The translations under genes were made by a program, and so were the position numbers. This document shows positions 28,040-44,859 of a stretch of DNA of 64,000 bases, in pieces. The notes beneath the pieces are model-generated. The model had not been told where the DNA came from, made no database searches, and was given only the letters and a program-made list of their open reading frames with translations. The stretch is from an uncultured Victivallis sp. GTDB lineage: Bacteria; Verrucomicrobiota; Lentisphaeria; Victivallales; Victivallaceae. Where the stretch lies: NCBI GenBank assembly GCA_944389815.1, contig CALXNS010000034.1:1-64000 (forward strand), read 5' to 3'. Within the stretch, counting starts at the first letter, position 1, and the number at the start of each line of letters is the position of its first letter.

Positions 28040-28954
28040 ATGCTCACAGTCGCAATCATCGGCGCGGGAGAACACTCCCGTCTGCATCACGGCGCAGCGC
28101 TGCACGCGTTGCGCAACCGGCTGGGCCGGTTGTCCGTAACGGATTTAAATCGGAACGCCGCCGAAGCGTTTCAACGCGACTACGAACTCGACCGCGCCTA
28201 TGACCGGATGGAAACCATGCTCGACGCCGAACAGCCCGACGCGGTCATCGCCGTCACCCCCGTGAACGTAACCGGAAAAGTCTTCCGGGAACTGGTGAAA
28301 TATCACATCCCGCTCCTGATGGAAAAACCATTCGGCGCGAATGCCGTCGAATCCCGTTCGCTTCATGAACTGGCGGTGCAGTCGCAGACCAAGCTCATGG
28401 TCTCCTTCAACCGCCGCTTTTCGCCGGTCATCACCCGGATGCGTGAAATGCTCCGCGGACGCAGTGTCGAACATCTCGCAGGAACAATGGCCCGCACTCA
28501 CCGGCACGATAAAGATTTCATCCACACCACCGCAATCCACCTCTTCGATATTCTCAATTATTTTGCCGGCGACGTGGCACCGCAGTCCGTCGAAGCGGGC
28601 GCATTGCTGCAGAACCGCAGTGCGCTCTTCCATTACCCCGGTGGAATTACCGCATCGGTCGCCATTCATCCGGACTGCGGACGGCTCGCGGAATGTTACG
28701 ACATCATCGGCGACGGGTTTTACATCGAAGCGGATTATTTTTCCGGTTGCCGCCTCTATGAAGATGGCCGCGTCGTCGACGAATACCGTATTCCGCCGGA
28801 TTCGCCGCTGGCGTTCCGCGAAGGCGCCGTCGCCGAACTGGAGCATTTCATCGATCAGATCGAATCGCATCAGCCGCATTTCGCCTCCACCAGCGCCAAT
28901 GCGCTCCACGCGGCCATGGCGGCGGAACGAATCCCGGAAATGGTGAACTTATGA
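28040..28954 (+). CDS. Gfo/Idh/MocA-family oxidoreductase
   Basis: A 304-residue NAD(P)-dependent oxidoreductase. The Rossmann fold begins at once: TVAIIGAGEHSRLHHG is the variant GxGxxS/A nucleotide motif. The catalytic EKP signature appears as LLMEKPFGANAVESR, and a His in the HTTAIHLFDILNYFAG segment corresponds to the catalytic region. It is somewhat shorter than the common 330-400 residues. Members oxidise, reduce or isomerise sugars and sugar acids. It is first in a plus-strand operon and overlaps the heparinase-like gene by ATGA, so it probably processes the product of that enzyme. Exact substrate unknown. Confidence 0.88.
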   Translation: MLTVAIIGAGEHSRLHHGAALHALRNRLGRLSVTDLNRNAAEAFQRDYELDRAYDRMETMLDAEQPDAVIAVTPVNVTGKVFRELVKYHIPLLMEKPFGANAVESRSLHELAVQSQTKLMVSFNRRFSPVITRMREMLRGRSVEHLAGTMARTHRHDKDFIHTTAIHLFDILNYFAGDVAPQSVEAGALLQNRSALFHYPGGITASVAIHPDCGRLAECYDIIGDGFYIEADYFSGCRLYEDGRVVDEYRIPPDSPLAFREGAVAELEHFIDQIESHQPHFASTSANALHAAMAAERIPEMVNL

Positions 28955-31272
28955 AACTGCATTTCGACTGCCTGACGCCCGGCATGTATGAATTGATTTA
29001 CCGGTTCCGCGCGCGGCAATTCGATCCGGAACAACTCTTCTTCAACGTCGACGGCCGCCGCTCCGGCCCGTGGGATTACGCCCCGTGGACGGCGCCGAAC
29101 GCCGGGGCGTGCGTGTTGCCGCGCGTGTGCGTTTCCGGTTCGGAGATCGACCGGACGACCGCGCGGGTCTTCGTCCCCCGGGCCGAAGAACTCGAACGGA
29201 GGGAATTCAGCGGCAGCATCGGCTTCGAAGTAAAACAATACGGCAGCATCGAACTGGAACTCGAAACCGATCTGCCGCACCCGGAGTGGATCTCGACGGA
29301 AATCCATCCTCTCGCAGATTTCAAAGATTTTTCCATCACCCGGGAATCCATTCGTCCGGAACAGCGTTTCCTGATCGAAACTTTTTCCATCGATGAACTG
29401 CGACGCGCCTGGCGCCGGAATGAATGCTGCCGGAGAATCGACGCGATTCTGGATGACTGCGGCCGGTTCGATCCGCCGCGGACGCAGCAGGAGGCCAATG
29501 GCGTAAGTTCACAATTTCTCAAGGGAACCAGCCATCCCTATGAAGATGACTGCGTCTTCTGGGGGGATTATCTTCTGGCGCTCGGATTGCGCCGGCTGAT
29601 CCTGAAACGCGACGACGATTTGAAACAACTCCGCCAATGGATCGAAGCATTGATCGCGCTTCCGATCTGGGGACGGGATTCCGATCCCGACGGGCGGGAC
29701 TGCGACAACGATCTCACCGCCGATTTTCACATGCTCGGGCTGACGTTCGCCGTCAGCTTCAACGCCGGAGATTTCGAACCGGAACTCCTCCGACGCATCC
29801 GGGAAAAAATCGCCGTTCAGGCGCGGAAAATGCGCCGCTGGATCGTCAGCGCCCGCAGTTCATGGCCGGGGGTGATCTCCCAGAATCACGCCTACTTCGG
29901 TTATCAGACGCTGATTCTGGCGGGACTGGCGCTTCTGGCAGATGAACATTATTCCATGGAAGCGCTCGATTTTCTTCAGATCGGCGCGGCTGCGTTCCGC
30001 CGTTTCAAAGATTGCCTGCCGTCGGACGGCTCTTACGCCGAAGGAGTGGGATATGTTCCGTTCGGACTGCAGGGTTTGATGCCGTCGCTCCTGCTGCTCA
30101 CGCAAACCACCGGAAAATCAGAGTGGATTCCCCGCCGCTGGCTGGAAAAACATCTCGCGGCGATGAACGCCTTCATCGCCGATCCGCCGGGAGACGGCTT
30201 GTTCATCGATGACGCGGTCGGAGTGTTCCCGGTCAACATCTCCGTGGTGGAATGGGTGTTTCATCATGCAAATTCCCAGGAAACGAAACAAATTGCGCAG
30301 GAACTTCTCCGGAAATACCGGATCTTTTCCGCGAATCATCCCGAAGACCGCGCAACCGAAGTTCGCTGGCTCTGCCACGACACCTGGCGTTTTCTTTTCG
30401 CTCCGGACGGCGTGCCCGCCACGGAGTTGACCGGAACGCCGCGCTCCGCCGCCGCGCTTGAATACACACTTCTTCCTCAAGCGGGCTGTTTCATCGCCGA
30501 TCCCGCACCCGGAATGAAGGTGATTTTTCTGGCGGGCCCGCCGCACGGGCACGAATTGTTCGGACGAGAAAGACACACCTATTCCTATGGGCACCATCAC
30601 CCGGACGCGGGGAACATCCTGCTGCAGGATGAGGGACGCTGGATTCTGGCGGACACCGGGTATTCGCTCTGCAAATCCAGCGCCGAACACAACATTCTCC
30701 TGATCGACGGTCACGGCCAGCACAACGACAATTATCCGTGGACGCCGCCGCCGCCGTGGGAGATCGTCCCGGAGAAAATCCGCCTCCGCGACTTCGGCGG
30801 CAACCGGATCCGCGCCGGACTCGATCTCGGCTGCTTTTATCCGCGGCAGCTCGCATTGCGGAACTGGAACCGTTCCTGCTGGATCGTCGGAGAGGCGATC
30901 GCGGTCGTCGATGAGGTGCGGTGTTTCCAACCGCGCCGGATGACCCTTCAATGGGTCTCCGAATACGCGTGGCACAGACAAAACGAGATGACGTTTCACA
31001 ACGATGCCGGGTGGCGGCTGACCTTATATGGAGACGCCCGCGAAACGCGCACGGATCAAATCCGTCCCTGCCGTCGCTGGCAATCCGCTGAAATCAAATA
31101 TTTTCACCGTCTGCAGATAAGCAATGTCGATGAAAATGCGACCGAATTCACCTTGCTCTCCATATTCCGCCGGGCGGAGTCTCCCGGAACGGATGAAGCA
31201 CTGCTCGATTTCCTGCGTCGGGAAACGGCTGACGCGGTCGCACCTGTACATTCTGCGGAGGCGGAAAAATGA
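28951..31272 (+). CDS. Heparinase II/III-like polysaccharide lyase
   Basis: A 773-residue protein. The central alpha/alpha toroid spans about residues 130-470 (SQNHAYFGYQTLILAGLALL, LPSDGSYAEGVGYVPFG). The C-terminal beta-sandwich contains YGHHHPDAGNILLQDEGRWI with His548-550, followed by LADTGYSLCKSSAEHNILLI, the diagnostic heparinase II/III-like signature. Such enzymes cleave uronic-acid polysaccharides (heparin, alginate, ulvan-like) by beta-elimination. No signal peptide is seen, so it probably acts on imported oligosaccharides. It overlaps genes on both sides by 4 bp, tightly coupling it with the oxidoreductase and the TIM-barrel protein. Substrate specificity is open. Confidence 0.87.
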   Translation: MKLHFDCLTPGMYELIYRFRARQFDPEQLFFNVDGRRSGPWDYAPWTAPNAGACVLPRVCVSGSEIDRTTARVFVPRAEELERREFSGSIGFEVKQYGSIELELETDLPHPEWISTEIHPLADFKDFSITRESIRPEQRFLIETFSIDELRRAWRRNECCRRIDAILDDCGRFDPPRTQQEANGVSSQFLKGTSHPYEDDCVFWGDYLLALGLRRLILKRDDDLKQLRQWIEALIALPIWGRDSDPDGRDCDNDLTADFHMLGLTFAVSFNAGDFEPELLRRIREKIAVQARKMRRWIVSARSSWPGVISQNHAYFGYQTLILAGLALLADEHYSMEALDFLQIGAAAFRRFKDCLPSDGSYAEGVGYVPFGLQGLMPSLLLLTQTTGKSEWIPRRWLEKHLAAMNAFIADPPGDGLFIDDAVGVFPVNISVVEWVFHHANSQETKQIAQELLRKYRIFSANHPEDRATEVRWLCHDTWRFLFAPDGVPATELTGTPRSAAALEYTLLPQAGCFIADPAPGMKVIFLAGPPHGHELFGRERHTYSYGHHHPDAGNILLQDEGRWILADTGYSLCKSSAEHNILLIDGHGQHNDNYPWTPPPPWEIVPEKIRLRDFGGNRIRAGLDLGCFYPRQLALRNWNRSCWIVGEAIAVVDEVRCFQPRRMTLQWVSEYAWHRQNEMTFHNDAGWRLTLYGDARETRTDQIRPCRRWQSAEIKYFHRLQISNVDENATEFTLLSIFRRAESPGTDEALLDFLRRETADAVAPVHSAEAEK

Positions 31273-32063
31273 CTTCACCTCTGAATGACAAAATCTCCCA
31301 CCCGCCAATCCCGTGGGGCATTTCCACTCTCGGGTGTCCGGAATTGTCGCTCGAAGAGGCGGCGCGTCTGGCGGACCGGTTCGGAATTTTCTTTCTCGAA
31401 CTGCGCGCGCTGGAGAATTCGCTTGCACTGGAATCGATTCTGACACGCCCGGAGAATTCATCTCTCATGGCCGAACTCTGCGCCGCCGGCAGGATCCGGA
31501 TGATCGACAGCACCTTCTGGTGCTGCGACCCGACGGAGGAGTCGTTCGACGAATTGTGCGCTCTTGCGGCGATGGCGGATCGATATCACGTGCCGTTTGT
31601 ACGCATTTTCGGCACCCGGAGCCAGACGCGGCCGACGGAATCTCAACTCGTTGAAGGCGAACGATCCATCAAACACTTTCTTTGGCAAAATTTCGCATGT
31701 CGCCTGGTACTGGAAACCCATGACGGATTCTCTGCGGCGGCGGATTGCGCCGCCTTCGCGGCACGATTTCAATTGCCGCCGGCGACACTCTGGGACGTTC
31801 ATCATACGCTTCATGCCGGGGAATCCCTCGAGACAAGTTTCCAGTTTCTGAAAGCAAGCATCGTTTCGTTCCACGTCAAGGATTGGGACGAAGAGGGCAA
31901 TGCCGTTCTTCCGGGGTGCGGCATTCTGCCGTGGCGGGAGTTGAGGCCGTATTTTGAACAATTGCCGGGGGTACCGGTCATATACGAATCCGAACGGTTG
32001 TGGGAGGCGGATTTCCCGCCGCTGGAAGAGGTTTTGCCGCAACTCGCGGAACAATGGAATTGA
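31269..32063 (+). CDS. TIM-barrel sugar isomerase/epimerase-like protein
   Basis: A 264-residue member of the xylose-isomerase-like TIM-barrel (AP endonuclease family 2) group. The metal-ligand pattern is visible: Glu in RLVLETHDGFS, Asp/His in LWDVHHTLHAG, His in VSFHVKDWDEEG and Glu in VIYESERLW. These enzymes isomerise or epimerise sugars such as inosose, tagatose or hydroxypyruvate-type substrates. It overlaps the heparinase-like stop as ATGA and ends the enzyme operon, so it likely acts on the sugar acid released by lyase and oxidoreductase. An independent promoter for the AraC gene overlaps its stop. Reaction not assigned. Confidence 0.85.
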   Translation: MTSPLNDKISHPPIPWGISTLGCPELSLEEAARLADRFGIFFLELRALENSLALESILTRPENSSLMAELCAAGRIRMIDSTFWCCDPTEESFDELCALAAMADRYHVPFVRIFGTRSQTRPTESQLVEGERSIKHFLWQNFACRLVLETHDGFSAAADCAAFAARFQLPPATLWDVHHTLHAGESLETSFQFLKASIVSFHVKDWDEEGNAVLPGCGILPWRELRPYFEQLPGVPVIYESERLWEADFPPLEEVLPQLAEQWN

Positions 32064-32088
32064 AAGTGAAATTCATCGGTGTTATCTT
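32060..32088 (+). promoter_or_regulatory. Promoter of the AraC gene
   Basis: TTGAAA at 32060-32065, 17-bp spacer, TATCTT at 32083-32088. It overlaps the stop of the preceding TIM-barrel gene, so the regulator can be transcribed independently of the operon. Confidence 0.55.
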
Positions 32089-32132
32089 AAACGGGAAATG
32101 ACGAGAACATGATTCAATTGAGGAGCGACATC

Positions 32133-32966
32133 ATGATTCATTGCGGAAATCCGGTCGCCGCACTGATGGATTATCTGGCGAACCACCATCCGGTAGTGGT
32201 GTTCAGCAGCTGCGACATCGTGCAGCGCAACCGCGACATCGAACATCTGCACAAGGATCTTTATCAATTAAGTTGCGTGGCGGGCGGCGAAAGCGTTCTC
32301 AACTTTCAATCGATCCATCAGGAGATCCAGCCGAACACCTTCTACATCATCAACCCGAACGAACTGCACAGTTTCTACTCCAAACCCGGTCAGGTCGCTC
32401 AGGTTGCCACCTGCCGTTTTCAGTTGCCGGGTTATTCACACCCTCTGCTTCGGCCGCGGATCGCGCTTCCGCCGGAACGGATTGCCGAGGCGCTGGGATT
32501 GATCTATCAGATGCAGGCATTGAGGTTGAAGGAGACGCCTCAGGACGCGGTTCGCGCCGGGCTCCGGCTGGCGGAACTCCTTCTGCTGCTGGCGGAATAC
32601 TGTCCAGGTGAAGAAAAGGAGAAATATACCTCGCTGGTGAACACCGCTCTTGATTTCATCAACGAACATTTCCGTTCCGGCATCGGCGTCGACGCGGTAG
32701 CCACCGCCTGCGGAGTAAGCGGCAGTCATCTGTCGCGCACCTTCCGAAAAGAGATGGGGATCACGCCGCAGGCGTTCATCCACCGGCTCCGGCTGGGGTA
32801 CGCCCAGGAACGATTGTTCCGCACCGACATGAAAATCGCCGACATCGCCCGCGAAGCCGGCTTCGAAAACAGCAAAAACATGAACCTCGCCTTCAAGCGC
32901 ACCTGCAAAATGAGCGCGAGTTCCTTCCGCGCCCAATATCAGGAGAAAAACAAACTGGAAAAATAA
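32133..32966 (+). CDS. AraC-family transcriptional regulator
   Basis: A 277-residue regulator. The N-terminal sensor is a cupin-like barrel (DLYQLSCVAGGESVLN, NTFYIINPNELHSFYSKP). The C-terminal ~100 residues carry two helix-turn-helix motifs, SGIGVDAVATACGVSGSHLS and MKIADIAREAGFENSKNMNL, with the typical GITPQAFIHRLRL linker. I start at ATG 32133, which has a strong GAGGAG 9 bases upstream, rather than at 32109. It follows the Gfo/heparinase/TIM-barrel operon and is the natural candidate for its regulator. The stop is immediately followed by the start of the 95-residue membrane protein. Confidence 0.92.
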   Translation: MIHCGNPVAALMDYLANHHPVVVFSSCDIVQRNRDIEHLHKDLYQLSCVAGGESVLNFQSIHQEIQPNTFYIINPNELHSFYSKPGQVAQVATCRFQLPGYSHPLLRPRIALPPERIAEALGLIYQMQALRLKETPQDAVRAGLRLAELLLLLAEYCPGEEKEKYTSLVNTALDFINEHFRSGIGVDAVATACGVSGSHLSRTFRKEMGITPQAFIHRLRLGYAQERLFRTDMKIADIAREAGFENSKNMNLAFKRTCKMSASSFRAQYQEKNKLEK

Positions 32967-33254
32967 ATGAATCTCTGGGAAGCATTAATGATGCTCTGTT
33001 TCGGCATCGGCTGGCCGGTGGCGATTTACAAGACGGTCAGAGAAAAAAATCCGGCAGGGAAAAGCGTCGCCTTCTCCTGGATCATCGTCGCCGGTTATCT
33101 GGCCGGCATCATTCACAAACTCGACAACCCCGACTGGGTGCTTTTTTTGTACGTCATCAATACGGCAATGGTTCTGATCGATCTGGCATTGATGCATAAA
33201 TACCGCCACCGGAACAACCGCCCGCCGGCAGCCGTCTCCACGCAGCATCCTTGA
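32967..33254 (+). CDS. Small membrane protein resembling a SemiSWEET/PQ-loop unit
   Basis: A 95-residue protein with three predicted membrane helices. Helix 1 contains FGIGWPVAIYKTVREKNPAG, then KSVAFSWIIVAGYLAGI and a third helix VLFLYVINTAMVLIDLAL. The sequence around WPVAIYKT and GKS resembles the PQ-loop repeat of SemiSWEET sugar transporters, which are also three-helix proteins of about this length and work as dimers, but the Pro-Gln pair itself is replaced by Pro-Val. It starts directly after the AraC stop, without a gap, so it is co-translated with it. A sugar-transport role is a plausible inference from fold, size and context only. Confidence 0.7.
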   Translation: MNLWEALMMLCFGIGWPVAIYKTVREKNPAGKSVAFSWIIVAGYLAGIIHKLDNPDWVLFLYVINTAMVLIDLALMHKYRHRNNRPPAAVSTQHP

Positions 33255-33349
33255 ACATTGCCGCCGGCCTTCCTCTGCCGCACAGCAGCCCCCGTCAAGT
33301 CTCGCCGTGGAGGACGACGAAAAATTCCCCGGAAAATTTATTCCGGAAA

Positions 33350-33378
33350 TTGACAATTGAAACAATTCATGCTATTTT
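33350..33378 (+). promoter_or_regulatory. Strong promoter of the lipopeptide gene
   Basis: TTGACA at 33350-33355, 17-bp spacer, TATTTT at 33373-33378, giving a leader of about 50 nt before the ATG at 33434. Confidence 0.75.
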
Positions 33379-33433
33379 TCGTTACGGGATGCCTTCCGCA
33401 TCTCAATTCCATCAACGCAGAAGGAGGTACTTC

Positions 33434-33511
33434 ATGAAACTGATGCTCCTGACCTTTGCCGGAACGATCGCATTGTTGCTGTTGAGCGGCTGCTGCGGAA
33501 GCTGCTGCTGA
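33434..33511 (+). CDS. 25-residue Cys-rich lipopeptide
   Basis: A very short gene with complete expression signals. The 25-residue product, starting MKLMLLTFAGTIALLL, is almost entirely a lipoprotein signal peptide with lipobox LLSGC. After lipidated Cys only five residues remain, four of them Cys with one Gly and one Ser in between. A perfect AAGGAGG ribosome site lies 7 bases upstream, a consensus promoter at 33350 and a strong hairpin terminator at 33535. This makes a real, highly expressed monocistronic gene likely. The mature product would be a lipid-anchored peptide of six residues. It resembles short lysis or entericidin-like lipopeptides in plan only; no function is claimed. Confidence 0.75.
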   Translation: MKLMLLTFAGTIALLLLSGCCGSCC

Positions 33512-33534
33512 AACAGAAAAGAGACCGGCAAACG

Positions 33535-33584
33535 CTCCGCCGCGCCGCTTCAGAAAATAAAGCGGTACGGCGGAGTAAATTTTT
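33535..33584 (+). terminator. Strong intrinsic terminator after the lipopeptide gene
   Basis: Two 16-base arms (33535-33550 and 33560-33575) pair except for two central mismatches around a 9-base loop, followed by TAAATTTTT. It lies between the lipopeptide stop and the convergent rhamnosidase stop at 33599. Confidence 0.85.
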
Positions 33585-33598
33585 GTGCCCGATCCTCT

Positions 33599-35698
33599 TT
33601 ATTTGTCGCGCACAAAATCCAGATGTTTCGTCAATGAGCCGTCCGCATTCCGTTTGAAGTGCGCGTGAATGCGCCCCTCCGGTATCCGCAACTGGAAGGA
33701 ACCGCGTTTCACCGGCCCCGGCTGCGGGTCAAATTCATACTCCGCCCAACCCGGCCGCGTCGGACGGATCCCGAAGAGCCGCCGCACGATCACGTTGCCC
33801 GGAGCGCTTCCCCACGGATGGGCGAAACTCATATTCGGCTTGAGCTCCACATCCCACGCTTCGGTGGTCACGGTGGCGCCGCCGGAGATCATCCGCAGCC
33901 AGGAGCGTTCCCCATCGGAGGTCATCAGTTCAATCGCCCGCTCCGCCCGGCGATGCCGGAAGAGCGCGTCCAGATAAAATTGTGCGCCGTAGACGCTGCA
34001 TTTCATGCCGCTGCGATCGATGAAATCAAGTGCCCGTCCGACATGATTTTCCTCCGCCACGCCGAATGCCAATGCGAACATGTTCGCGTGGAACGAAGCA
34101 TGAGTGCTCCCGACATGATCGAGAAAGAGCCCGCGCTCCCCGTCGTACAGACGCGCATTGAACGCGGCGCGCAGTTCGGCGGCAAGTTCGGAAAATTTCC
34201 GCGCATCGCGGTCGCGCCCGAGATAATCCGCCAGTTCCGCAAGCAGCGTAAGATCCCAGTAGACGAACGCATTGGCCACCGCGTTCCCGGAACCGAATTC
34301 GTAATTGTCCCGACAGGACATCGGCCAGTCGACGATGATCCGCATCGGAAATTCACTGACCAGCCCGTCGCAGAGCAGTTCATGGAACGAACACTCCTTG
34401 ACCAGACGCGGATAATATTGCTCCAGCAACCCCATATCCCCCGTGTGCAGCAGATATTCCCGCATGACCGGAATCAGAAACATCCGCCATTCGCACGGCC
34501 ACGTCGTGTGGTTGATCTGATACTCGAAGGTGCGGCGCGCCACACGCGAACGGTGTTCGACGCAGAAATGCGTCAACATGTTGATGTAGGCGTCCGCCTC
34601 GTAGGCCATCCGTTCCCGGCTGGGGCAGTCGTAATAGACGTCCCACGTCGTGTAACGGATGGTGTCGCGGCAGAAATTCCAGACTTTCTCCAGCCGGTGG
34701 TCGCTCAATTCCAACGTCGAATCCTTCTCGTTGAACGGCGAATTGAGCGCGATCGCCGCCACATCGCCGCTCCGCAGCTCCCCGGGGTAATCGACCAACT
34801 CCAGATAACGGAACGAACGCACTCCGAAATTCGTCAGCGTCGCGCCGCCGGCGGGAAAACGCCACCCTTCCTGATAACAATTTCCAGTCCGCATCTGAAA
34901 ACGCACTTCGCCGGACGGCAGGAGTTCCTCGCCGAGCCGCATTTCAACGACCCCCTCGCGCGAAGTGCGAAGTTCCGGAGCGCCGGTGACGTTGCGCCCA
35001 AAATCCACCAGAATCCGCCGTACGTCGAGCCGCCGGATCTCCTGTGGCGCAACCCGGGTGAAACGGTAATTCGGAATGCCGGCAGGTTCAATCTCATACG
35101 CGTCGCCGGGAGCAAAAATTTTCGCCTTCTTCCATTTGCGATCATTGAATCCCGTCCGAAGCCAGCCGAAGGGATAGAGTTCGCCGTCAAGATGTTCCGG
35201 GGTCTCGCCCGGGCCTGAACTGCCTTTGTGGAAAGAGCCGAATCCGGGATGAAACCAGCAGAACGGCGAAAATATGTCATTCGCCGGCAACGTTTTCCAG
35301 TCGGATCCGCTGACGATCTTCCTGGTACTGCCGTCCCGGTATTGGAGTTCGAGCCGCAACGCGAAACCGTAACGTTCGCCGCGCGAAATCACCCCGATGA
35401 CGTTGCGTCCCTCCACGAGCGCAGCCGTGACGTCGAAATGATGTTCCACCGCGTGCGCATCGACGATCGGACGTGCCGGTCCGGCACCGACCTGGGTCGA
35501 ATTGACGAAGAGGCGATATTTCAGAAAGCTTCCGGCCATCAACCAGTTATGTTCATATTCAACGCGCATCCAGTCCTTCCAGAGATAACTGTGCGGATCC
35601 GCGGTGATCCACACCGTCGCCGACTTCAGATGTTTCCGGACGTTGAACACCTTGCGGCAGAATTGATTGCCGGGGCCGCCGATATAGGATGGGGTCAT
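33599..35698 (-). CDS. GH78-like alpha-L-rhamnosidase
   Basis: A 699-residue protein. The N-terminal ~230 residues are beta-sandwich domains typical of GH78 (WMRVEYEHNWLMAGSFLKYR, VFNVRKHL). The catalytic alpha/alpha barrel carries YYDCPSRERMAYEADAY, matching the GH78 signature in which Glu362 is the probable general acid, then a helical segment with DWPMSCRDNYEFGSGN. The C-terminal beta domain contains SFAHPWGSAPGNVIVRRLFG, also typical. No signal peptide is visible, suggesting intracellular action on imported oligosaccharides. GGGAG precedes the start. The enzyme is divergent from the toroid-like gene at 35908. GH78 members release alpha-L-rhamnose; specificity here is inferred from family. 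Confidence 0.85.
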   Translation of the reverse strand: MTPSYIGGPGNQFCRKVFNVRKHLKSATVWITADPHSYLWKDWMRVEYEHNWLMAGSFLKYRLFVNSTQVGAGPARPIVDAHAVEHHFDVTAALVEGRNVIGVISRGERYGFALRLELQYRDGSTRKIVSGSDWKTLPANDIFSPFCWFHPGFGSFHKGSSGPGETPEHLDGELYPFGWLRTGFNDRKWKKAKIFAPGDAYEIEPAGIPNYRFTRVAPQEIRRLDVRRILVDFGRNVTGAPELRTSREGVVEMRLGEELLPSGEVRFQMRTGNCYQEGWRFPAGGATLTNFGVRSFRYLELVDYPGELRSGDVAAIALNSPFNEKDSTLELSDHRLEKVWNFCRDTIRYTTWDVYYDCPSRERMAYEADAYINMLTHFCVEHRSRVARRTFEYQINHTTWPCEWRMFLIPVMREYLLHTGDMGLLEQYYPRLVKECSFHELLCDGLVSEFPMRIIVDWPMSCRDNYEFGSGNAVANAFVYWDLTLLAELADYLGRDRDARKFSELAAELRAAFNARLYDGERGLFLDHVGSTHASFHANMFALAFGVAEENHVGRALDFIDRSGMKCSVYGAQFYLDALFRHRRAERAIELMTSDGERSWLRMISGGATVTTEAWDVELKPNMSFAHPWGSAPGNVIVRRLFGIRPTRPGWAEYEFDPQPGPVKRGSFQLRIPEGRIHAHFKRNADGSLTKHLDFVRDK

Positions 35699-35734
35699 GT
35701 TGTCTTTCTCCCTCTTGTTTACACTCTTTCTTCC

Positions 35735-35762
35735 AATATAAGACTTTTTGTCGTCAAAGCAA
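35735..35762 (-). promoter_or_regulatory. Promoter of the GH78-like gene
   Basis: On the minus strand, TTGCTT (35762-35757), 16-bp spacer, TATATT (35740-35735). The start codon follows about 37 bp downstream with a GGGAG site. Confidence 0.55.
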
Positions 35763-35907
35763 GCCCGATCGGCGCGGCATGAAAAAAAACAAATCGTTTT
35801 TTTACAAATTTGCTTGCAATTTACGGAACCGCACGCACCTTAGTAGAAACAGTTCAGAAACTGGTATCAAACCCCAAATCAATTCCAATTCACGGAGCTC
35901 AAAAAAA

Positions 35908-37596
35908 ATGGAACCGGACGTCGATTTGAAAACAATGCTCGCCGCGCAGGAACCGAATTTTTCCACTCAATGCAACCTTCTCGGTGAATCCTGGCACAGC
36001 ATCGGTTATCACTCCCAGGTCCCCACCGGTACGTGGGTGCACGCCACACGCACATCGATCTATTACGCGCTTGCATTGCTCGCTTCGGGCGAAACCGCCT
36101 GGATCGAACGCGCTCCCAAAGTCATCCGCGCCGTCCTCGCCAGCCAGGTGACCGATCCCTACGACCCCGCCTTCGGCATCTGGCCGTGGCTCGATGAGGA
36201 ACGCGTCCCGCAGATGGCGCCGCCCGACTGGAACTGGGCGGATTTCATCGGCGCCGCCCTCTGCCACATACTGCGAGAATATTCCGATCTTCTCGATGAC
36301 GCGATCAAGGCGGAGATCCGGGCCGCCCTCGAACGCGCGGCCTGGTCGATTTTCCGCCGGAATGTTCAGCCCGAATACACCAACATCGCGATCATGGGCG
36401 CCGCCGTCACCGGCGCCGCCGCCGAACTGCTCCACATTCCGCTCCTGCTCGAATACGCCCGGAGACGGTTGGAAAAATTCGCCGTGCACACCGAAAAATC
36501 CGGAGGCCTCACGGAATACAACAGCCCCACCTACACCTTCATCGCCCTTTTCGAACTCGAACGCATTCTGCAATTGATCGAAGACCCGGTCATCCGCGAA
36601 TACGCCACGAAACTTCATGAAGTTGTCTGGGGCAAAATCGCCGACCACTTCCATCCGCTCACCGGTCAGCTCTGCGGTCCGCAGTCGCGCGCCTACAACG
36701 ATTTTCTTTCGAAGGGAACCGTCCGATTCCTGCGCTGGGCCACCGGCGTTGAAATTCCATTGGGACCGCAGCCGGCCGACAGCGGAAACCCGCTCAGTTT
36801 CAATTATGACGGCATCCGCCATTTGCCCTGCCCGGAAAAAATCCGTCACCGGTTCGCCGAACTGCCCCGGGACGAATTCGAACTTCGTGAATGCTGCATC
36901 CGCCGCGTGCCGGAGGAGAATTCGTTTCATGCGGTCGCCTGGTTCAGTACCGAAGCCACGCTCGGCAGCGGCAGCCGCGACGCCTTCTGGGCGCAGCGCC
37001 GCCCGATGCTGGGATACTGGATGGCGGCCAACGGACAACCGGCCGTTTTGAAGGTGCGTTTCCTGAAGGACGGCCGCGACTGTTCCGCCGCCGGCATCTG
37101 GCAGGCGCAGCGCGGAACCGAGATCGTTTTCGCCATGCAGATGTTGACCAACCTCGGCGATTATCACATCACGCTCGACCGGCCGCCGCAGGGAATCTAC
37201 ACGTTTCATTCGCTCGCCTACAGCTGGGAACTCCACGCCGCGGACGCTGAAGTGACGGAAGAGTCGGACGGTTCCTTCGTCATGAGTTCCGGCGCGTACA
37301 AAGTGCGGATCACTCCCGCACCCGACGGACGTTTCCACGATGAACCGGTCAAGTGGCGCTGCATTCAGGAAAAGGGCTGCTGCCGGGTCGAAGCCGTGCT
37401 CTGCGACGGAGCCGAACGCAGTCTCGCCTTCGACGAGAATCTCCGCTGTGAACTTGGCGGCGCTCTCGAACTTTTCCCCGCAACGGCTGAACCATCCACG
37501 GAAAAACCGGTCAAAACCATGTCTGAGGGAAAGATTCATTTCTCCCGGAATGGTCTCACCGTCACTGCACCTGACCATGCGGTGACGTTTCAGTAA
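35908..37596 (+). CDS. Unknown protein with toroid-like helical half and beta half
   Basis: A 562-residue protein I cannot place with confidence. The N-terminal ~330 residues are helical with alternating patterns seen in alpha/alpha toroids (STQCNLLGESWHSIGYHSQV, TEKSGGLTEYNSPTYTFIAL, LHEVVWGKIADHF). The C-terminal ~230 residues are beta-rich. That order is shared with polysaccharide lyases such as heparinase II/III-like and chondroitin/hyaluronan lyases, but no diagnostic signature was found. No signal peptide is seen. I start at ATG 35908, with GGAG upstream; the longer frame is probably untranslated. It is divergent from the GH78-like rhamnosidase, which suggests a role in the same glycan pathway. 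Confidence 0.75.
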   Translation: MEPDVDLKTMLAAQEPNFSTQCNLLGESWHSIGYHSQVPTGTWVHATRTSIYYALALLASGETAWIERAPKVIRAVLASQVTDPYDPAFGIWPWLDEERVPQMAPPDWNWADFIGAALCHILREYSDLLDDAIKAEIRAALERAAWSIFRRNVQPEYTNIAIMGAAVTGAAAELLHIPLLLEYARRRLEKFAVHTEKSGGLTEYNSPTYTFIALFELERILQLIEDPVIREYATKLHEVVWGKIADHFHPLTGQLCGPQSRAYNDFLSKGTVRFLRWATGVEIPLGPQPADSGNPLSFNYDGIRHLPCPEKIRHRFAELPRDEFELRECCIRRVPEENSFHAVAWFSTEATLGSGSRDAFWAQRRPMLGYWMAANGQPAVLKVRFLKDGRDCSAAGIWQAQRGTEIVFAMQMLTNLGDYHITLDRPPQGIYTFHSLAYSWELHAADAEVTEESDGSFVMSSGAYKVRITPAPDGRFHDEPVKWRCIQEKGCCRVEAVLCDGAERSLAFDENLRCELGGALELFPATAEPSTEKPVKTMSEGKIHFSRNGLTVTAPDHAVTFQ

Positions 37597-37629
37597 TCGG
37601 ACAAAGAATCACTTCCGGTCAAAATAAAG

Positions 37630-37668
37630 AACACGGCGGAGAAATGATTTCACTTCCCGCCGTGTTTT
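37630..37668. terminator. Bidirectional terminator between the toroid-like gene and dnaE
   Basis: Perfect 10-bp arms (37630-37639 and 37657-37666) enclose a 17-base loop that contains a smaller dyad. T tracts follow on the plus strand, and a TTTATTTT-type tract follows on the minus strand, so it can serve both convergent genes. Confidence 0.8.
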
Positions 37669-37687
37669 TCTGCATTTGCTGTTACAT

Positions 37688-40600
37688 TCAGCTCTTCTTC
37701 TCCTCCATCGCCGGCTGGCCGTCGGCACCGGGTTTGCTCCACGCCCGTTTCTGGGGCGGATTGTAGGGCCGCGCCTTGAGCCGGTAATGGCCGTGTCCGA
37801 GCAATTGATCGAGTTTTCGCAGCAACTCCTGCGTGACGGTGATCTTTCCCCTGTGCGCTTCAATGAAGGTGACCGAATCGTCCACCCCCACCAGGCAGAT
37901 CACCAGCCGCGTCTCCCCGGGAACTTCATAACACGCTTTCGCCGCCGCTTCCAGATCGCCCTTCCTGAGCTTGTCGGCGTAGAAATGCAAATGCAGTTCC
38001 TCGGTGAAGAAACTCGGAGCGTCCAGCAACGAATACACCTTGTCCACAATGACGCGCGGTTTCTCGTTTTCGTCGCGTTTGCTCACCGTCGCCTCCAGCA
38101 GCAGCGGAGTTCCCGGCGACATATCGATTCCCGCCGCGGTGAGCGCTCCGAGCGCCCGTTCGTAAATCATGCATTCCGCCGAGGAATCCAGATCCTCCAG
38201 CAGCAGGATGCCGAACTGTTTGCCCGAATTCCGGCTGAACTTCTGCGTGAAGGAGTTCACCATTCCGGCCACCCGGATCTGCGTGTTGTCCTTGAGCGTC
38301 TCCAGCTGCCGCAGCGGCACCGAAGAATAGGTCCGCACCAGTTCGGCATACGGATCGAGCGGATGGCCGGTCACGTAGAACCCGAGCAGCTCCTTCTCGC
38401 TCTTTAAAATCTCCTGCAACTCGAATTCCGGAATATCCGGAATCGGCACCGAACACCCGTCATTCCCGCCGTCGTCGAGCAGATCGAAGAGCGACCCCTG
38501 TCCGGCGGCCTTATCCCGGGCGCGCCCCGCCGCGAACGCCATCATTGGTTCCGCGGTCGCCAGCAGCTGCGAACGGCGAAGCCCGAGCCCGTCGAGCGCC
38601 CCCGCCCGGGTCAAATGTTCCAGCATGCGCGAATTGAGGTCGCTGCCGCACCGTTCGCAGAAATCGAGGAACGTTTCGAATTTCCCCTCTTCGCGCCGGC
38701 TCTCGATGATCCGCCGCGCCGCGATTTCGCCGACCCCCTTGATCGCCCCCAGGCCGAAGCGGATCCGTCCGGCGTCCACCGAAAAACTGATCCCGCTCGA
38801 ATTGACGTCCGGCGGCAGCACTTCGATGCCCATCTCCCGGCAGGCGTTGATCAAAAAAGCGATCTTTTCGGCGCTCTCAAGTTCGCTCGTGAGCACCGCG
38901 GCCATGAATTCGACCGGATAATTCGCTTTGAGGTACGCCGTCTGATAGGTGACGAAACCGTACGCCGCCGAGTGCGATTTGTTGAACCCGTACCCGGCGA
39001 ACAACTTGATCTTCTCCCAGATCTGATCGGCAAGCTTTTCGTCGATGTTGTTGGTCTCCTTGCAGCCCTTGAAGAATTTCTCGCGCTGCTTGGCAAGCAC
39101 ATCGACTTTCTTCTTGCCGATCGCCCGCCGGAGAATGTCCGCGCCGCCAAGCGTGAAACCGGCCAGAACCTGCACCACCTGCATGATCTGCTCCTGATAG
39201 AGCATGATCCCGTACGTTTCCTTGAGGCACTCCTCCATCAGCGGATGGTCGTAGATGATTTTCTCTTCGCCTTTTTTACGCCGGATGAAGTCCGGAATGA
39301 ACTGCATCGGCCCCGGACGGTAAATCGCCAGAAGCGCGATGATGTGTTCAAGCGTCTCCACGCCGAACGAACGGCAGAGATTCTGCATGCCGCCGGATTC
39401 CAGCTGGAAGACCGCGATCGTATCGCCGCGCCGGAGCATTTCGAAGGTTTTCGGATCGTCGAGCGGAATTTTCATCATATCCAGTTCGACGCCGTGGTTT
39501 TCCTTGATCATGTCGATCGCATTCTTGATGATCGTGAGCGTCCGCAGCCCGAGGAAGTCCATCTTCAACAGCCCCTGCTCCTCGCACGGATGCGCCGGAA
39601 ACGGCACGACCATGCTGTCGGACGCGCTCCGCGCCAGCGGCACGAGATTGTCCAGCCGCTGGTCGCCGATGATCACTCCCGCGGCATGGATGCCGGTCTG
39701 CCGGTTCAACCCCTCCAGCACCTTGGCGAACTTCCACACCTGGGCGATCTGCGGATCGTTTTCGAGCGCGTCGGCGAGCTCCTTGTTCTGTTCGACGGCC
39801 TTGTCGAGGGTCATTTTCGGATCCTCGGGGATCATCTTCGAGAGCCGGTTGCCGAATTCGAAATCGAACCCGAGCACCCGGGCGACGTCCTTGACCACCG
39901 CCTTGGCCTTCAACTGACCGTAGGTGCAGATCTGCGCGACGCTGTCGAATCCGTATTTGCCGCGGACGTAATCGATCACTTCGCCGCGCCGTTTTTCGCA
40001 GAAGTCGATGTCGAAGTCCGGCGGACTTACCCGTTCCGGATTCAGAAACCGTTCAAAAAAGAGCCCGAACCGCAATGGATCGATGTCCGTAATCAGCGTG
40101 AGATACGCCACGAGCGACCCCGCGCCCGAACCGCGCCCCGGCCCGACCGGAATACCCTGGCGCTTCGCGTGCCGGATGAAGTCGGAGACCACGAAGAAGT
40201 AACTGATGAATCCGGTCTTCTCGATGACGCCGAGCTCGTAATCCATGCGTTCGAGAATTTTCTGCTGCCGGGGGGTGAAGGAGCCGCAGGTGCGCGGATT
40301 GAATCCGTAACGGTACTCCATGTTGTCGAGGCACACCTCGCGCAGATCGTTCCGGTCGGCGAGCCGGCCGTCCGGCATGAAGAACTTCGGGTAATGGTTC
40401 ACTTCGGGCACGTATTTGAATTTCATGCTGCAACGGTCGGCAATCAACCGCGTATTGGTGATCGCCTCCGGGAGTTCCCGGAAAATTTCGCGCATCTCCG
40501 CTTCGCTCTTGAAGTAATAATCCGGCCCCGAGAATTTGAAATGCTTCTCCGCCAGACGCGCCCCGGTCTGAATACAGAGCATGATCTCATGCGCTTCGGC

Positions 40601-41257
40601 GTCTTCCTTGCGCATGTAATGCACGTCGTTGGTGGCGATCATCCGCAGGTTGTTCCGCCGCGCGAGATCGACCAGGAATTTATTGCAGCGGCGCTCCTCC
40701 TCCATGCCGTGATCCATCAGTTCGATGAACAAATTGTCACTGCCGAAAATTTCCAGATAATCGTGAAGCGCCTGTTCGGCGCGCCGTTCGTCGCCCTGGA
40801 GGAAATATTGGGAAATCTCGCTGCCGATGCAGGCCGTCGAACAGATCAATCCATCGTGGTATTCGCGCAGCAGCGCTTTGTCGATCCGCGGCTTGTAATG
40901 GAATCCATCCTTGTTGGCGGCGGACATGAGTTTGCACAAACTTGCGTAACCGCGGTCGTTCTCGCAGAGCAAAATCAGATGGAACCCGCCGCGGTTGAAT
41001 GGTTTGTTCGAATCGAAATCGCGCATGTCGCCGGGTGCGACATACGCCTCCACGCCGATGATCGGATTGATCCCCGCCCCGGAGAGCGTCTGGTGAAACT
41101 CCTCGACGCCGCCCATGTAACCGTGGTCGGTGATGGCGATGGCGTTCATATCCATCTCCTCGGCGAGCTTGAGCAGTCCCTTGACGGTGCAGGCGCCGTC
41201 GAGCATGCTGTAATGAGTGTGCAAATGCAGATGTACGAAATCGGAAGGCATCTTCAA
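37688..41257 (-). CDS. dnaE: DNA polymerase III alpha subunit DnaE
   Basis: The 1189-residue replicative polymerase subunit. It begins with a PHP domain (FVHLHLHTHYSMLDGACTV, AIAITDHGYMGGVEEF) with the metal-binding His and Asp residues in place. The polymerase core carries GPGRGSGAGSLVAYLTLITD and PDFDIDFCEKRRGEVIDYV, with catalytic carboxylates Asp414, Asp416 and Asp418. The fingers region has ILYQEQIMQVVQVLAGF and KKKVDVLAKQ. A helix-hairpin-helix and an OB fold follow in the last third (LGFYVTGHPLDPYAELV). Length is close to the 1160 residues of E. coli DnaE. The start ATG at 41257 follows a consensus promoter at 41296-41324. It is single and flanked by unrelated genes. Confidence 0.97.
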   Translation of the reverse strand: MKMPSDFVHLHLHTHYSMLDGACTVKGLLKLAEEMDMNAIAITDHGYMGGVEEFHQTLSGAGINPIIGVEAYVAPGDMRDFDSNKPFNRGGFHLILLCENDRGYASLCKLMSAANKDGFHYKPRIDKALLREYHDGLICSTACIGSEISQYFLQGDERRAEQALHDYLEIFGSDNLFIELMDHGMEEERRCNKFLVDLARRNNLRMIATNDVHYMRKEDAEAHEIMLCIQTGARLAEKHFKFSGPDYYFKSEAEMREIFRELPEAITNTRLIADRCSMKFKYVPEVNHYPKFFMPDGRLADRNDLREVCLDNMEYRYGFNPRTCGSFTPRQQKILERMDYELGVIEKTGFISYFFVVSDFIRHAKRQGIPVGPGRGSGAGSLVAYLTLITDIDPLRFGLFFERFLNPERVSPPDFDIDFCEKRRGEVIDYVRGKYGFDSVAQICTYGQLKAKAVVKDVARVLGFDFEFGNRLSKMIPEDPKMTLDKAVEQNKELADALENDPQIAQVWKFAKVLEGLNRQTGIHAAGVIIGDQRLDNLVPLARSASDSMVVPFPAHPCEEQGLLKMDFLGLRTLTIIKNAIDMIKENHGVELDMMKIPLDDPKTFEMLRRGDTIAVFQLESGGMQNLCRSFGVETLEHIIALLAIYRPGPMQFIPDFIRRKKGEEKIIYDHPLMEECLKETYGIMLYQEQIMQVVQVLAGFTLGGADILRRAIGKKKVDVLAKQREKFFKGCKETNNIDEKLADQIWEKIKLFAGYGFNKSHSAAYGFVTYQTAYLKANYPVEFMAAVLTSELESAEKIAFLINACREMGIEVLPPDVNSSGISFSVDAGRIRFGLGAIKGVGEIAARRIIESRREEGKFETFLDFCERCGSDLNSRMLEHLTRAGALDGLGLRRSQLLATAEPMMAFAAGRARDKAAGQGSLFDLLDDGGNDGCSVPIPDIPEFELQEILKSEKELLGFYVTGHPLDPYAELVRTYSSVPLRQLETLKDNTQIRVAGMVNSFTQKFSRNSGKQFGILLLEDLDSSAECMIYERALGALTAAGIDMSPGTPLLLEATVSKRDENEKPRVIVDKVYSLLDAPSFFTEELHLHFYADKLRKGDLEAAAKACYEVPGETRLVICLVGVDDSVTFIEAHRGKITVTQELLRKLDQLLGHGHYRLKARPYNPPQKRAWSKPGADGQPAMEEKKS

Positions 41258-41295
41258 AAAATTCCCGTTGCAATGGTCAAGATAATTATGCTTGT

Positions 41296-41324
41296 AGTAT
41301 ACTTCCGGAATCGATTTTTCTCAA
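41296..41324 (-). promoter_or_regulatory. Promoter of dnaE
   Basis: On the minus strand TTGAGA (41324-41319), 17-bp spacer, TATACT (41301-41296), about 38 bp upstream of the dnaE start. Confidence 0.7.
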
Positions 41325-41556
41325 CCCGGGAAATGATTTTTTTCGCAAAAATCATTGTCTTCCGACTGTTGTGGTCAAACTCCCCGGCAGCCTCCGGCGC
41401 CACCGGAGTCGACGACATTCGTGCAGACGTGTTTTTCTTGAATTGCGTCAACGGTGGAAATTAATTTTTCATCCTCAGCAAAAATAGTTCGCCGCCTCCT
41501 TTCCCCCCACTGACTCTGCGGGCAAAGATGGAGGAAATGGGCCAGATCCATGGCCT

Positions 41557-41586
41557 GCGGGAACCGGATGTGAGACCGGTTCCCGC
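41557..41586 (-). terminator. GC-rich hairpin after the GH106-like gene
   Basis: Perfect 11-bp arms (41557-41567 and 41576-41586) around an 8-base loop, some 24 bp past the GH106-like stop. There is no T tract on either side, so termination is less certain; the arm resembles the serC terminator stem. Confidence 0.5.
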
Positions 41587-41609
41587 AAGCCTGCCTGCCG
41601 CCGCTGAAC

Positions 41610-44600
41610 TCAGCAATCGAGCAGTCGCGGCGCAATGAACAACCCGAACGGTTGAAGTCGGTATTCGTAACTGAACATATCCCCGTTCGTCCGCCACGCC
41701 TGCGGCCCCATCCACGAATAACGGAAACTCAGATGCACCGCGCCGAAACAGTTGATCCGGCTGCCGTAAAGCGTGAGATCGATCGCATGTCTTCCCGCGG
41801 CAACCTCACCGAGGGCGCATTCAAACGGCGCAAACGCGAGATCCCCCATTTCTTTCCCATCCAGCCGCACCGACATCAATGTGCCGCGAAACGCCGAAAA
41901 CAACACCTCGCGGGCGGCGTTCGGTCCGGTCAAACCCTCCGGCACGTTCGAAGCGCGGCTCGGCAGATGCAGCATGAGCTGCCGCGTTTCCGGCGCATCA
42001 TATTCGAAGTGATAGGTGATGTTTCCACCAAAGAACGGCAGCCCCTGCTGCGTCGCGTCTCCGAGCGTCAGTTCCCGCACCGGTTCCACGATCACCGCGC
42101 GGTCGCCGCGGAGCCGCACGCCGAAATCGCCCAGAAGGTATGCCCATTCAACATTCGTCCGCTCCGAATACGGTCTCCGGAGAATCAGTTCATGTTTCCC
42201 CGCCGGAAAATCCGGCAATGCAACGCATTTCAACGCCCGGTCGGTCCACCACGACTCCACGTTCATCGGAACTTCCACGCCATCCCAGAAAACGACCGTC
42301 GTCTCCGGCTGTTCCAGCGCCAGGCGCGCTCCCGAAACCGGAACACGGCTGTCGATGACGAACCGCATTTCCAGCGTATCGAGAATTTTGTCCGACGCCT
42401 TCATCACCCAGGGCTGGACAATCTGTCCGGTAACCGGCGGCAATCCCATTTCGGCACGGGCGAGATTGTTGAGGCGCAGCACTTCTTCGCGGGGGCGCCA
42501 CGTGCCGTCCCCGGAGAGTTTCCACTCCGCCTGGTCGAGCAGCAGCACATTCGGCTCGTCAAGCGAAACCGGCACCGTTCCTTCCGGCATCCGCAGAAAA
42601 CCGCGCGTCGCCTTTTCGACCTCGTCCTCCCGGAACGGTACCTGACGCAGAGTCACTCCCTCGCAGACCTGCGCCGGTTCCAGTTTCAGCAACAGGTGGC
42701 CATGTGCGCAGAAATCCTGTTTTTCGAGCAGCGTCCAGTCGTTTTCGATCCGTCCGGCCAACGGGGTTGAAGTACCGTCGGCGGTATTGAGCAGCGAAAT
42801 CTGCCACGAACCGCGAATCCGCACCGTCCCGCGGAACGATACGCCCATGCGGGCTGTGTTGACGAGGAACAAATACCCCTTGTCATTTTCGCGGCGCAAC
42901 TGATAAATCAATGTGGAAGACGGAGTTCCGTCCTCACAGATCACCGCGACGTCGCGTTCGGGCGCGAGCGCTTCAAGAAGATCGATCCGGTTGAAGGGAA
43001 CCTTTTCGCATTTTTCGGCCAGTTTGGCGGCGCGGTCGGATTCGATCGCATCGGCGAGCGTCGCAACCGGGCCGGAAAAAATCACCCGGCCGCCCGCAGC
43101 GACAAATTGTTCGAGCCGTTCCAGCGTCGAATTCCGCAATGTCACCGTCGGCGGGACGATGACCACGTCGTAAGCCATCTCTCCGACGATGAGACATTTG
43201 CCGATCTGAAGCGGCGACTGCTTCGGCAGCAGCGCTTCGGAGATGAAGTCGAAATCGATCAGTCCGAAAAGCAGCCACTGAATCAGGTTTTGAAAATCCT
43301 CTTCCGACTGCTGCCGCCGCCCCGCGGTCTGTTCAATCGGTCCGCAGTGCAGCCAGAAAGATTCGATCGGATGGATCACTCCGACCCGCACCCGGGCACG
43401 ACCGCGCGACATGGCGCAGTTCACCCGGGCGAAATGGTCGGCGATCAGATGATATTTCTCGAACCACGGCGACTGATAGCTGATCGACGCAGGATAATCC
43501 CGTTTCGCCTCGCCCGCCATCGACAGCCACGCCAGATGCGGAACGCGCACCGTAACTCCGAGCGCCGCCTGCCAGTCGCCGTGTCCCTTGTGCCCCATGA
43601 AACTGAAATCCCAGTCAGTCACGCCGTCGAGTTCACAGAGAACGCCGCCGCGTCCGGCCTGACGTGAAACGCTCGCAACCTGTTTGGCCGTACTGTATTC
43701 GAACCAGTCGCAGAGCATGTCGATTCCCGGCAGCTGAAACGATCGGTAACAGCGCATCGCTTCTCCGATGCAGAAGGTTTGACTGGTCAGCGCCCCTTCC
43801 GCATTGAGGTGCCCCGAGAAACGGATGCCGTGCGCTTCGCACCATTGCCCGATCTCATCGCAGAACGCTCCGGCAAACCGTTCGGCAAGATGGTCATGAT
43901 AACGATAACGCGCCGTAGAATACCGGTCGCCGGGCAGCTGCCAGACGATTTCCGGAATCGTCGGGAGAAATTCCGTACCGTAGCAGCGACGGTAACTCTC
44001 GTCGAAGGTGTCCGTCCACGGCAGAATGACGTCTTCCCCGCTGCGGGCGGAACGCAGCCAGGTTTTGGCGGGGAACTGCGGTTCATCGGTGAAAATCGCC
44101 GGAATCACCTTGCCGAATTCGTCGCCGACGCTCCGGAAATACGCTTCGTAGGTCACGTCGATGAATTTTTGGACCGCTTCCGGATTGAGCGTATCCAGAT
44201 AAGTTTCGCCGTTGAACCAGCTGCTTTCTTCTTGAAGTTCGCGATAAAGGAAGAAGCGAGTCTCCCCGTCTTTCAATGTTTCGTCGGCGGCGAGAATCCG
44301 GCTGGATTCCAGACAATCTGCGGCATCTAATTTCACCGCGAAGACCGCATGCGGCGTTTCGCCGGACCGTTCAGTCGGAGTCAATCTCAGAAAGCGAGCG
44401 CGATATCGCGGATCCTTCGTGACGATGCCGCCCGCGGCGCCGCTCGGCCAGCGGTCTTCATCGTAAAGCCAGGCGAGCATCTTCCGCTCCCGGGCGCCTT
44501 CGACGCACTCGCGGACGCGGGCCATGAACTCCTCGCTCAGATAAGGGGTCTCCAAGCCGGTTCTGGCATGCATATGAAAGCCGCCCATCCCCATTTTCCT

Positions 44601-44744
44601 GAAAATATCGATCTGCCGGAGCAGTTCAGCCGGCTCCAGCGCGCTGTTCCACGCCCAGAACGGCGTCTCCCGGTACAACGCCCCCGGCGCAGCGAAAAGA
44701 GCGTCAAAATCCCGTCTGGCATCATCGGCGTATAACGATTCCAT
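41610..44744 (-). CDS. GH106-like glycoside hydrolase
   Basis: A 1044-residue enzyme of a large group annotated as glycosyl hydrolase and related to GH106 alpha-L-rhamnosidases. The hallmark N-terminal region is present: ETPFWAWNSALEPAELLRQI, GMGGFHMHARTGLETPYLS and MLAWLYDEDRWPSGAAGG. A long TIM-barrel region and several C-terminal beta domains follow (LGDFGVRLRGDRAVIVEPV). No signal peptide is visible, so it probably works inside the cell. The start at 44744 has GGGAGG upstream; the frame continuing to 44783 is unlikely. It is divergent from an AraC regulator with a strong inverted repeat between them. Catalytic residues and specificity cannot be assigned by eye. Confidence 0.75.
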   Translation of the reverse strand: MESLYADDARRDFDALFAAPGALYRETPFWAWNSALEPAELLRQIDIFRKMGMGGFHMHARTGLETPYLSEEFMARVRECVEGARERKMLAWLYDEDRWPSGAAGGIVTKDPRYRARFLRLTPTERSGETPHAVFAVKLDAADCLESSRILAADETLKDGETRFFLYRELQEESSWFNGETYLDTLNPEAVQKFIDVTYEAYFRSVGDEFGKVIPAIFTDEPQFPAKTWLRSARSGEDVILPWTDTFDESYRRCYGTEFLPTIPEIVWQLPGDRYSTARYRYHDHLAERFAGAFCDEIGQWCEAHGIRFSGHLNAEGALTSQTFCIGEAMRCYRSFQLPGIDMLCDWFEYSTAKQVASVSRQAGRGGVLCELDGVTDWDFSFMGHKGHGDWQAALGVTVRVPHLAWLSMAGEAKRDYPASISYQSPWFEKYHLIADHFARVNCAMSRGRARVRVGVIHPIESFWLHCGPIEQTAGRRQQSEEDFQNLIQWLLFGLIDFDFISEALLPKQSPLQIGKCLIVGEMAYDVVIVPPTVTLRNSTLERLEQFVAAGGRVIFSGPVATLADAIESDRAAKLAEKCEKVPFNRIDLLEALAPERDVAVICEDGTPSSTLIYQLRRENDKGYLFLVNTARMGVSFRGTVRIRGSWQISLLNTADGTSTPLAGRIENDWTLLEKQDFCAHGHLLLKLEPAQVCEGVTLRQVPFREDEVEKATRGFLRMPEGTVPVSLDEPNVLLLDQAEWKLSGDGTWRPREEVLRLNNLARAEMGLPPVTGQIVQPWVMKASDKILDTLEMRFVIDSRVPVSGARLALEQPETTVVFWDGVEVPMNVESWWTDRALKCVALPDFPAGKHELILRRPYSERTNVEWAYLLGDFGVRLRGDRAVIVEPVRELTLGDATQQGLPFFGGNITYHFEYDAPETRQLMLHLPSRASNVPEGLTGPNAAREVLFSAFRGTLMSVRLDGKEMGDLAFAPFECALGEVAAGRHAIDLTLYGSRINCFGAVHLSFRYSWMGPQAWRTNGDMFSYEYRLQPFGLFIAPRLLDC

Positions 44745-44859
44745 CTTCGTACCTCCCTCATGACACATGAAGTGATCGTTCATTTCAGAGATCCCGGACT
44801 ATGGATCCCCGTCAGCTTTCATTACAATACTTCGGCCCCCGATTGCGAACCTTGATTTT

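Follow-up and report, generated by a model that had tools for sequence, protein, structure and literature searches.

Bacterial metallothionein-like and vicinal-thiol peptides are Cys-dense, soluble, and longer than the peptide described here, and Cys-rich attenuator leader peptides (e.g., those of mycobacteria) consist of a run of Cys codons followed by a terminator. Members of the entericidin family (EcnA/EcnB; Atu8019) are encoded by small genes with an N-terminal signal peptide and a lipobox, and their mature part has a few tens of residues; that of Atu8019 has 32 residues, and the protein is not lytic (PMC7296081). We analyzed a stretch of 64,000 nucleotides (hereafter, the window) on contig 34 of the 3.4 Mb draft genome of a Victivallis-group bacterium from the gut, which carries a 25-codon gene. 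The gene resembles the entericidin genes in its small size, N-terminal signal peptide, and lipobox; however, its predicted mature part has 6 residues (3–8 in its relatives). It shares its Cys density with the metallothionein-like peptides, but its short tail is predicted to be lipid-anchored. With the attenuator leaders it has the Cys run and the terminator in common, and it differs from them in having a convergent next gene and a conserved lipobox.

Searches of six members of this gene class against NCBIfam and Pfam gave no match above cut-off. Among the entericidin models, only NF007319 (entericidin A) produced a match, to the member in genome G029 (11.7 bits against a cut-off of 86; E = 0.19). 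The model of LptM, the LPS translocon maturation lipoprotein (NF047847), resembled three members in signal peptide and lipobox (E = 0.01–0.13), with scores of 12–16 bits (best 15.9) against a cut-off of 27.7, and these matches covered residues 1–20, i.e., the signal peptide only. Neither the entericidin models nor the LptM model matched the window peptide. The likeness to entericidins and LptM is limited to the signal peptide. Lipoproteins as short as this one are not described in the part of the literature that was covered, and the window gene is filed here as an unusual variant among small lipoproteins.

Anatomy of the 25-codon gene

The initial annotation had described a 25-codon gene enclosed by a promoter-like site, a ribosome site, a lipobox, a stop codon, and a terminator. 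This arrangement was confirmed, and its parts are as follows.

33350..33378, plus strand: sigma-70-type promoter-like site TTGACA-17-TATTTT, with TG preceding the −10 region (10 of 12 consensus bases)
33385..33433, plus strand: presumed 5′ untranslated region, placed from the promoter position
33422..33427, plus strand: perfect Shine-Dalgarno sequence AGGAGG, with the ATG 6 nt further on
33434..33511, plus strand: ultra-short lipoprotein gene of 25 codons, product MKLMLLTFAGTIALLLLSGCCGSCC (ORF translation, pattern and profile searches)
33434..33490, plus strand: predicted lipoprotein signal peptide of 19 residues with LSG at its end (from the sequence and the Lgt and LspA genes in the genome)
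33491..33508, plus strand: predicted mature lipopeptide C-C-G-S-C-C (from the sequence; C20, C21, and the final Cys are invariant in eight members)
33534..33584, plus strand: intrinsic terminator, a GCTCCGCCG...CGGCGGAGT hairpin (about 33534–33576) followed by TTTTT (33580–33584)

The peptide has a basic N-terminus, a hydrophobic stretch, and the lipobox LSG followed by Cys (context MKLMLLTFAGTIALLLLSG followed by Cys), where the criterion for a type II signal peptide was [LVI][ASTVI][GAS]C. Its tail had been given correctly as C-C-G-S-C-C, but the accompanying count was garbled: there are six residues, four of which are Cys, including the one predicted to be lipidated. The terminator hairpin (−29.2 kcal/mol) begins 22 nt past the stop codon; it was missed by a simple terminator scanner, which was probably defeated by the mismatches inside the hairpin and by the 9-nt loop. 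The predicted transcription unit is about 200 nt long. Downstream of it lies an alpha-L-rhamnosidase gene (33599–35698) on the minus strand, and this convergent orientation means that the 25-codon gene stands alone. In the 5′ direction, the reading frame remains open as an 86-codon ORF that begins with TTG at 33251; among the starts inspected, a clear ribosome site precedes 33434 alone.

A consensus promoter had also been claimed. The site is present, but taken alone it is near chance and not significant, with two such sites observed in 2 kb versus 0.9 expected. We then scanned for the combination of an ATG, a Shine-Dalgarno sequence of at least 4/6 matches, a basic N-terminus, a hydrophobic stretch, a lipobox, and a tail of at most nine residues with at least two Cys. 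The window contains one match, versus none in 60 dinucleotide-preserving shuffles (3.8 Mb). High expression would be a reading of the consensus signals only.

Relatives in the Victivallaceae and selection in genus g16

As the initial annotation had proposed, we searched related genomes for small ORFs with a lipobox and a Cys-rich tail. A protein search of relatives gave possible matches, and inspection of those loci revealed short stand-alone ORFs that share the plan of the window gene. Pattern and profile searches of 78 Victivallaceae genomes agreed on eight such ORFs, and the recurrence of this plan in seven further genomes supports the earlier view of a self-contained, ultra-short lipoprotein gene whose product has a Cys-rich tail. 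The seven members outside the window are as follows.

G001: MKYFAFSLFTLSLAFILSGCCC
G007: MKTALSFVAGTVAALVLAGCCC
G023: MKNLFAWISCTAMVLMLAGCCC
G035: MKKIFAWIACAAMVLMLAGCCC
G062: MKNLSAWISCAAMALLLAGCCC
G026: MKAAVLTLAAVIATLALAGCCGGGC
G029: MIRIMFAVLCAAVLLSGCCGGCGGC

The eight members have 22–25 codons and tails that read CCC, CCGGGC, CCGGCGGC, or CCGSCC, all with Cys as the last residue. Lipobox GCC and the final Cys occur in 8/8, and Leu17-x-Gly19-Cys20 is found at equal spacing in seven; tail length and Gly/Ser content vary. The sequence of the signal peptide is poorly conserved across genera, whereas the Cys tail is kept in every member. Ribosome sites with 4–6 of 6 matches precede all eight ORFs, and terminators follow seven of them (G001 being the exception). 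Promoter-like sites end 32–40 nt 5′ of the ORF in G001, G007, G023, G035, and G062, and are weak or absent in G026 and G029.

The pattern search of the 78 genomes returned 24 rows, of which eight are the in-frame members, and a reversed-pattern control gave five matches. In the profile search of the same genomes, the members scored 28–44 bits; lower-scoring matches sit in longer open frames and are mostly signal peptides of ordinary lipoproteins, and one non-member, within a 256-codon frame, reached 29 bits. Outside the family, the strings matched in a further 59 genomes of the order and in 242 genomes of the phylum (partly the same genomes as the 59) included no in-frame member, and none of 27 pattern matches in viral contigs was in frame with a lipobox. 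A GTDB-wide scan of 85,000 species matched at least 117 stretches; among the matches listed, only those from the Victivallis group passed a strict lipoprotein and ribosome-site scan, and in-frame matches outside the group (e.g., in Pseudomonas, Hymenobacter, and Devosia) failed it and were rejected. The restriction of this gene class to the family Victivallaceae, as read from these genomes, is well supported, although not proven.

Within the family, the distribution is patchy. The small gene is present in three of the nine genomes of the window's own genus, and for the window copy we found neither a relative with matching flanking gene order nor an orthologous locus. A gene 87% identical to the kdpC beside the G007 member occurs in a sister species (G005), where the small gene is lacking downstream. 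Neighboring genes vary by genus with no common theme: the window gene lies among an AraC regulator, a small membrane protein, and the convergent rhamnosidase, and the neighbors in genomes other than G007 include an isochorismatase, an amino-acid permease with a ClC channel, and a C39 peptidase with a longer lipoprotein. In the window, G007, and G026, the gene that follows runs on the opposite strand; in a further genus, g16 (rhaA), and in G029 (the ClC gene), it lies on the same strand.

In g16, the ORF occupies one shared place in three species, in frame, between a P-type ATPase gene and rhaA; the ATPase is of the heavy-metal type with a CPC motif, and a metal gene adjoins the ORF in this genus only. 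The ORF has no indels, versus several in the flanking intergenic DNA, and the sequence past the stop codon is divergent. The Nei-Gojobori estimates of dN/dS, 0.14, 0.22, and 0.40, indicate purifying selection. In a randomization that scattered the observed changes, 0.4–2.6% of trials preserved an intact frame and start together with the GCCC tail at equally few residue changes. This substitution pattern, which covers 66 bases, is modest evidence for translation.

Proposed product and alternative explanations

The genome contains genes for both Lgt (PF01790, E = 2.5e-64) and LspA (PF01252, E = 3.5e-39); lipidation and cleavage before Cys20 are thus the expected fate of the product. The 25-residue peptide would probably be made and exported through Sec, after which Lgt would acylate Cys20 and LspA would cleave before it, leaving a lipid-anchored peptide of 3–8 residues, Cys-Cys-Gly-Ser-Cys-Cys in the window. 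In E. coli, a +2 residue other than Asp favors the outer membrane, and under this rule the lipopeptide, with Cys at +2, would probably reside there. Adjacent thiols suit soft metals. The Cys content is kept despite the variable tail length, which suggests that thiols are the selected feature, and the constancy of the cysteines in an otherwise variable tail favors a tethered thiol ligand; the working part would be free thiols beside the anchor, which would form a membrane-tethered ligand in soft-metal or redox chemistry. The ATPase neighbor in g16 fits metal handling and is the sole contextual hint. Since ordinary longer lipoproteins of the group can likewise have Cys at +2 (6 of 33 collected, a sample biased by the search), two Cys following the lipobox are by themselves no sign of special function; Cys at +2 appears to be a lineage tendency, and the pair may be partly a lineage habit.

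We consider it likely that this is a real, translated lipoprotein gene. The analysis established the anatomy of the gene, its recurrence, the selection in g16, and the presence of the lipidation enzymes in the genome. Its expression and the lipidation and location of the lipopeptide are inferred from sequence, and a thiol, metal, or redox role of the Cys tail is speculative, as are the toxin and signaling roles raised in the initial annotation. To the full chain, in which a real monocistronic gene encodes a lipoprotein that is exported, lipidated, and used as a thiol, metal, or redox ligand, we assign a probability of roughly 0.35. The extension to the whole class is more tentative, namely that these are family-restricted minimal lipoproteins whose mature part is a lipid-anchored set of 3–5 Cys, serving as membrane-tethered thiol ligands in metal or redox control. 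If expressed, the product would be among the smallest lipoproteins, with the export and lipidation signal making up nearly the whole gene and a few thiols as payload, which raises the question of the minimum a lipoprotein can be while still useful. The 25-codon gene is under the size reported by gene finders, and such minimal lipoproteins would be invisible to gene callers, because they would have no protein domain; small genes below the usual length cut-off can be found by joining ribosome site, lipobox, tail, and terminator across a bacterial family.

Other explanations were weighed against the tethered thiol ligand. With its own promoter and terminator, the gene follows the plan of small lipoproteins such as the entericidins, and the sub-cut-off match of the G029 member to entericidin A points the same way; the product may be a membrane-active or envelope-stress peptide (entericidin- or lysis-lipoprotein-like), for which the decisive feature would be the acylated stub or the burden it places on the Lgt/LspA/Lol pathway, and the cysteines could serve for dimerisation or extra acylation. 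However, a mature part of 3–8 residues lacks the length needed for an amphipathic helix, no model matched above cut-off, and Atu8019, with its 32-residue mature part, was not lytic (PMC7296081), so that we regard this explanation as unlikely. The ORF could also be a remnant, either the N-terminal part left after mutation truncated a longer lipoprotein of the GCC type or a new short ORF without function, as a GCC or GCCC start is seen in some of the family's longer lipoproteins, the distribution is patchy, and no locus is shared with a sister species. Eight genes of one plan and the selection in g16 argue against it, and the terminator so close to the stop codon leaves no room for a lost lipoprotein body; its chance of being correct is small.

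Enterococcal pheromones are cut from lipoprotein signal peptides, and 19 of the 25 residues here are signal peptide; a hydrophobic fragment released by LspA and membrane proteolysis might therefore act as a signal. This is improbable, given that the signal peptide is the part poorly conserved between genera and that a pheromone requires the lipobox only, not the Cys-rich tail that all eight members keep. A short transcription unit with a strong terminator might instead yield a small regulatory RNA, in which the ORF would be incidental or of secondary importance; but an Rfam search gave no match, the RNA of 33385–33511 (without the terminator) does not fold better than shuffled sequences do (z = −0.83), and translation is favored both by the perfect ribosome site and by constraint at the codon level in g16, which leaves this explanation little room. 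A Cys-codon leader peptide or attenuator that controls the downstream gene would suit the Cys codons followed by a terminator and the same-strand rhaA (g16) and ClC (G029) genes, but it is refuted at the window locus by the minus-strand orientation of the next gene and is highly improbable for the class, since the next gene is likewise on the opposite strand in G007 and G026, the downstream genes have no evident cysteine link, and an attenuator has no need of a signal peptide or lipobox.

Longer lipoproteins and genes around the window locus

At L031, L226, and L234, we observed longer lipoproteins whose mature part starts with CC or CCC (e.g., GCCCKVAEADVKES, GCCNCGKNCPP). In G001 (L048, 4473–5121, minus strand), a longer lipoprotein, MKFLTALPLITLLAGCCFVSM..., begins about 25 nt past the short gene; the interval contains no terminator, and the two may therefore be co-transcribed.

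The small membrane protein in the window (32967–33254; 95 aa) looks PQ-loop/SemiSWEET-like by eye, with a Pfam match below cut-off only. It has relatives in 66 of the 78 family genomes and exists in two copies in the source genome, the other being on contig 94 (59% identity). Synteny through this gene was tried and rejected: the window copy is the second copy, and the copies in other genomes are at most about 59% identical and lie elsewhere. The wider region, 28951–44783, is a carbohydrate gene cluster that includes a heparinase II/III-like protein, the AraC regulator, the GH78 rhamnosidase, and another protein, whose match to GH106 rhamnosidase falls below cut-off.
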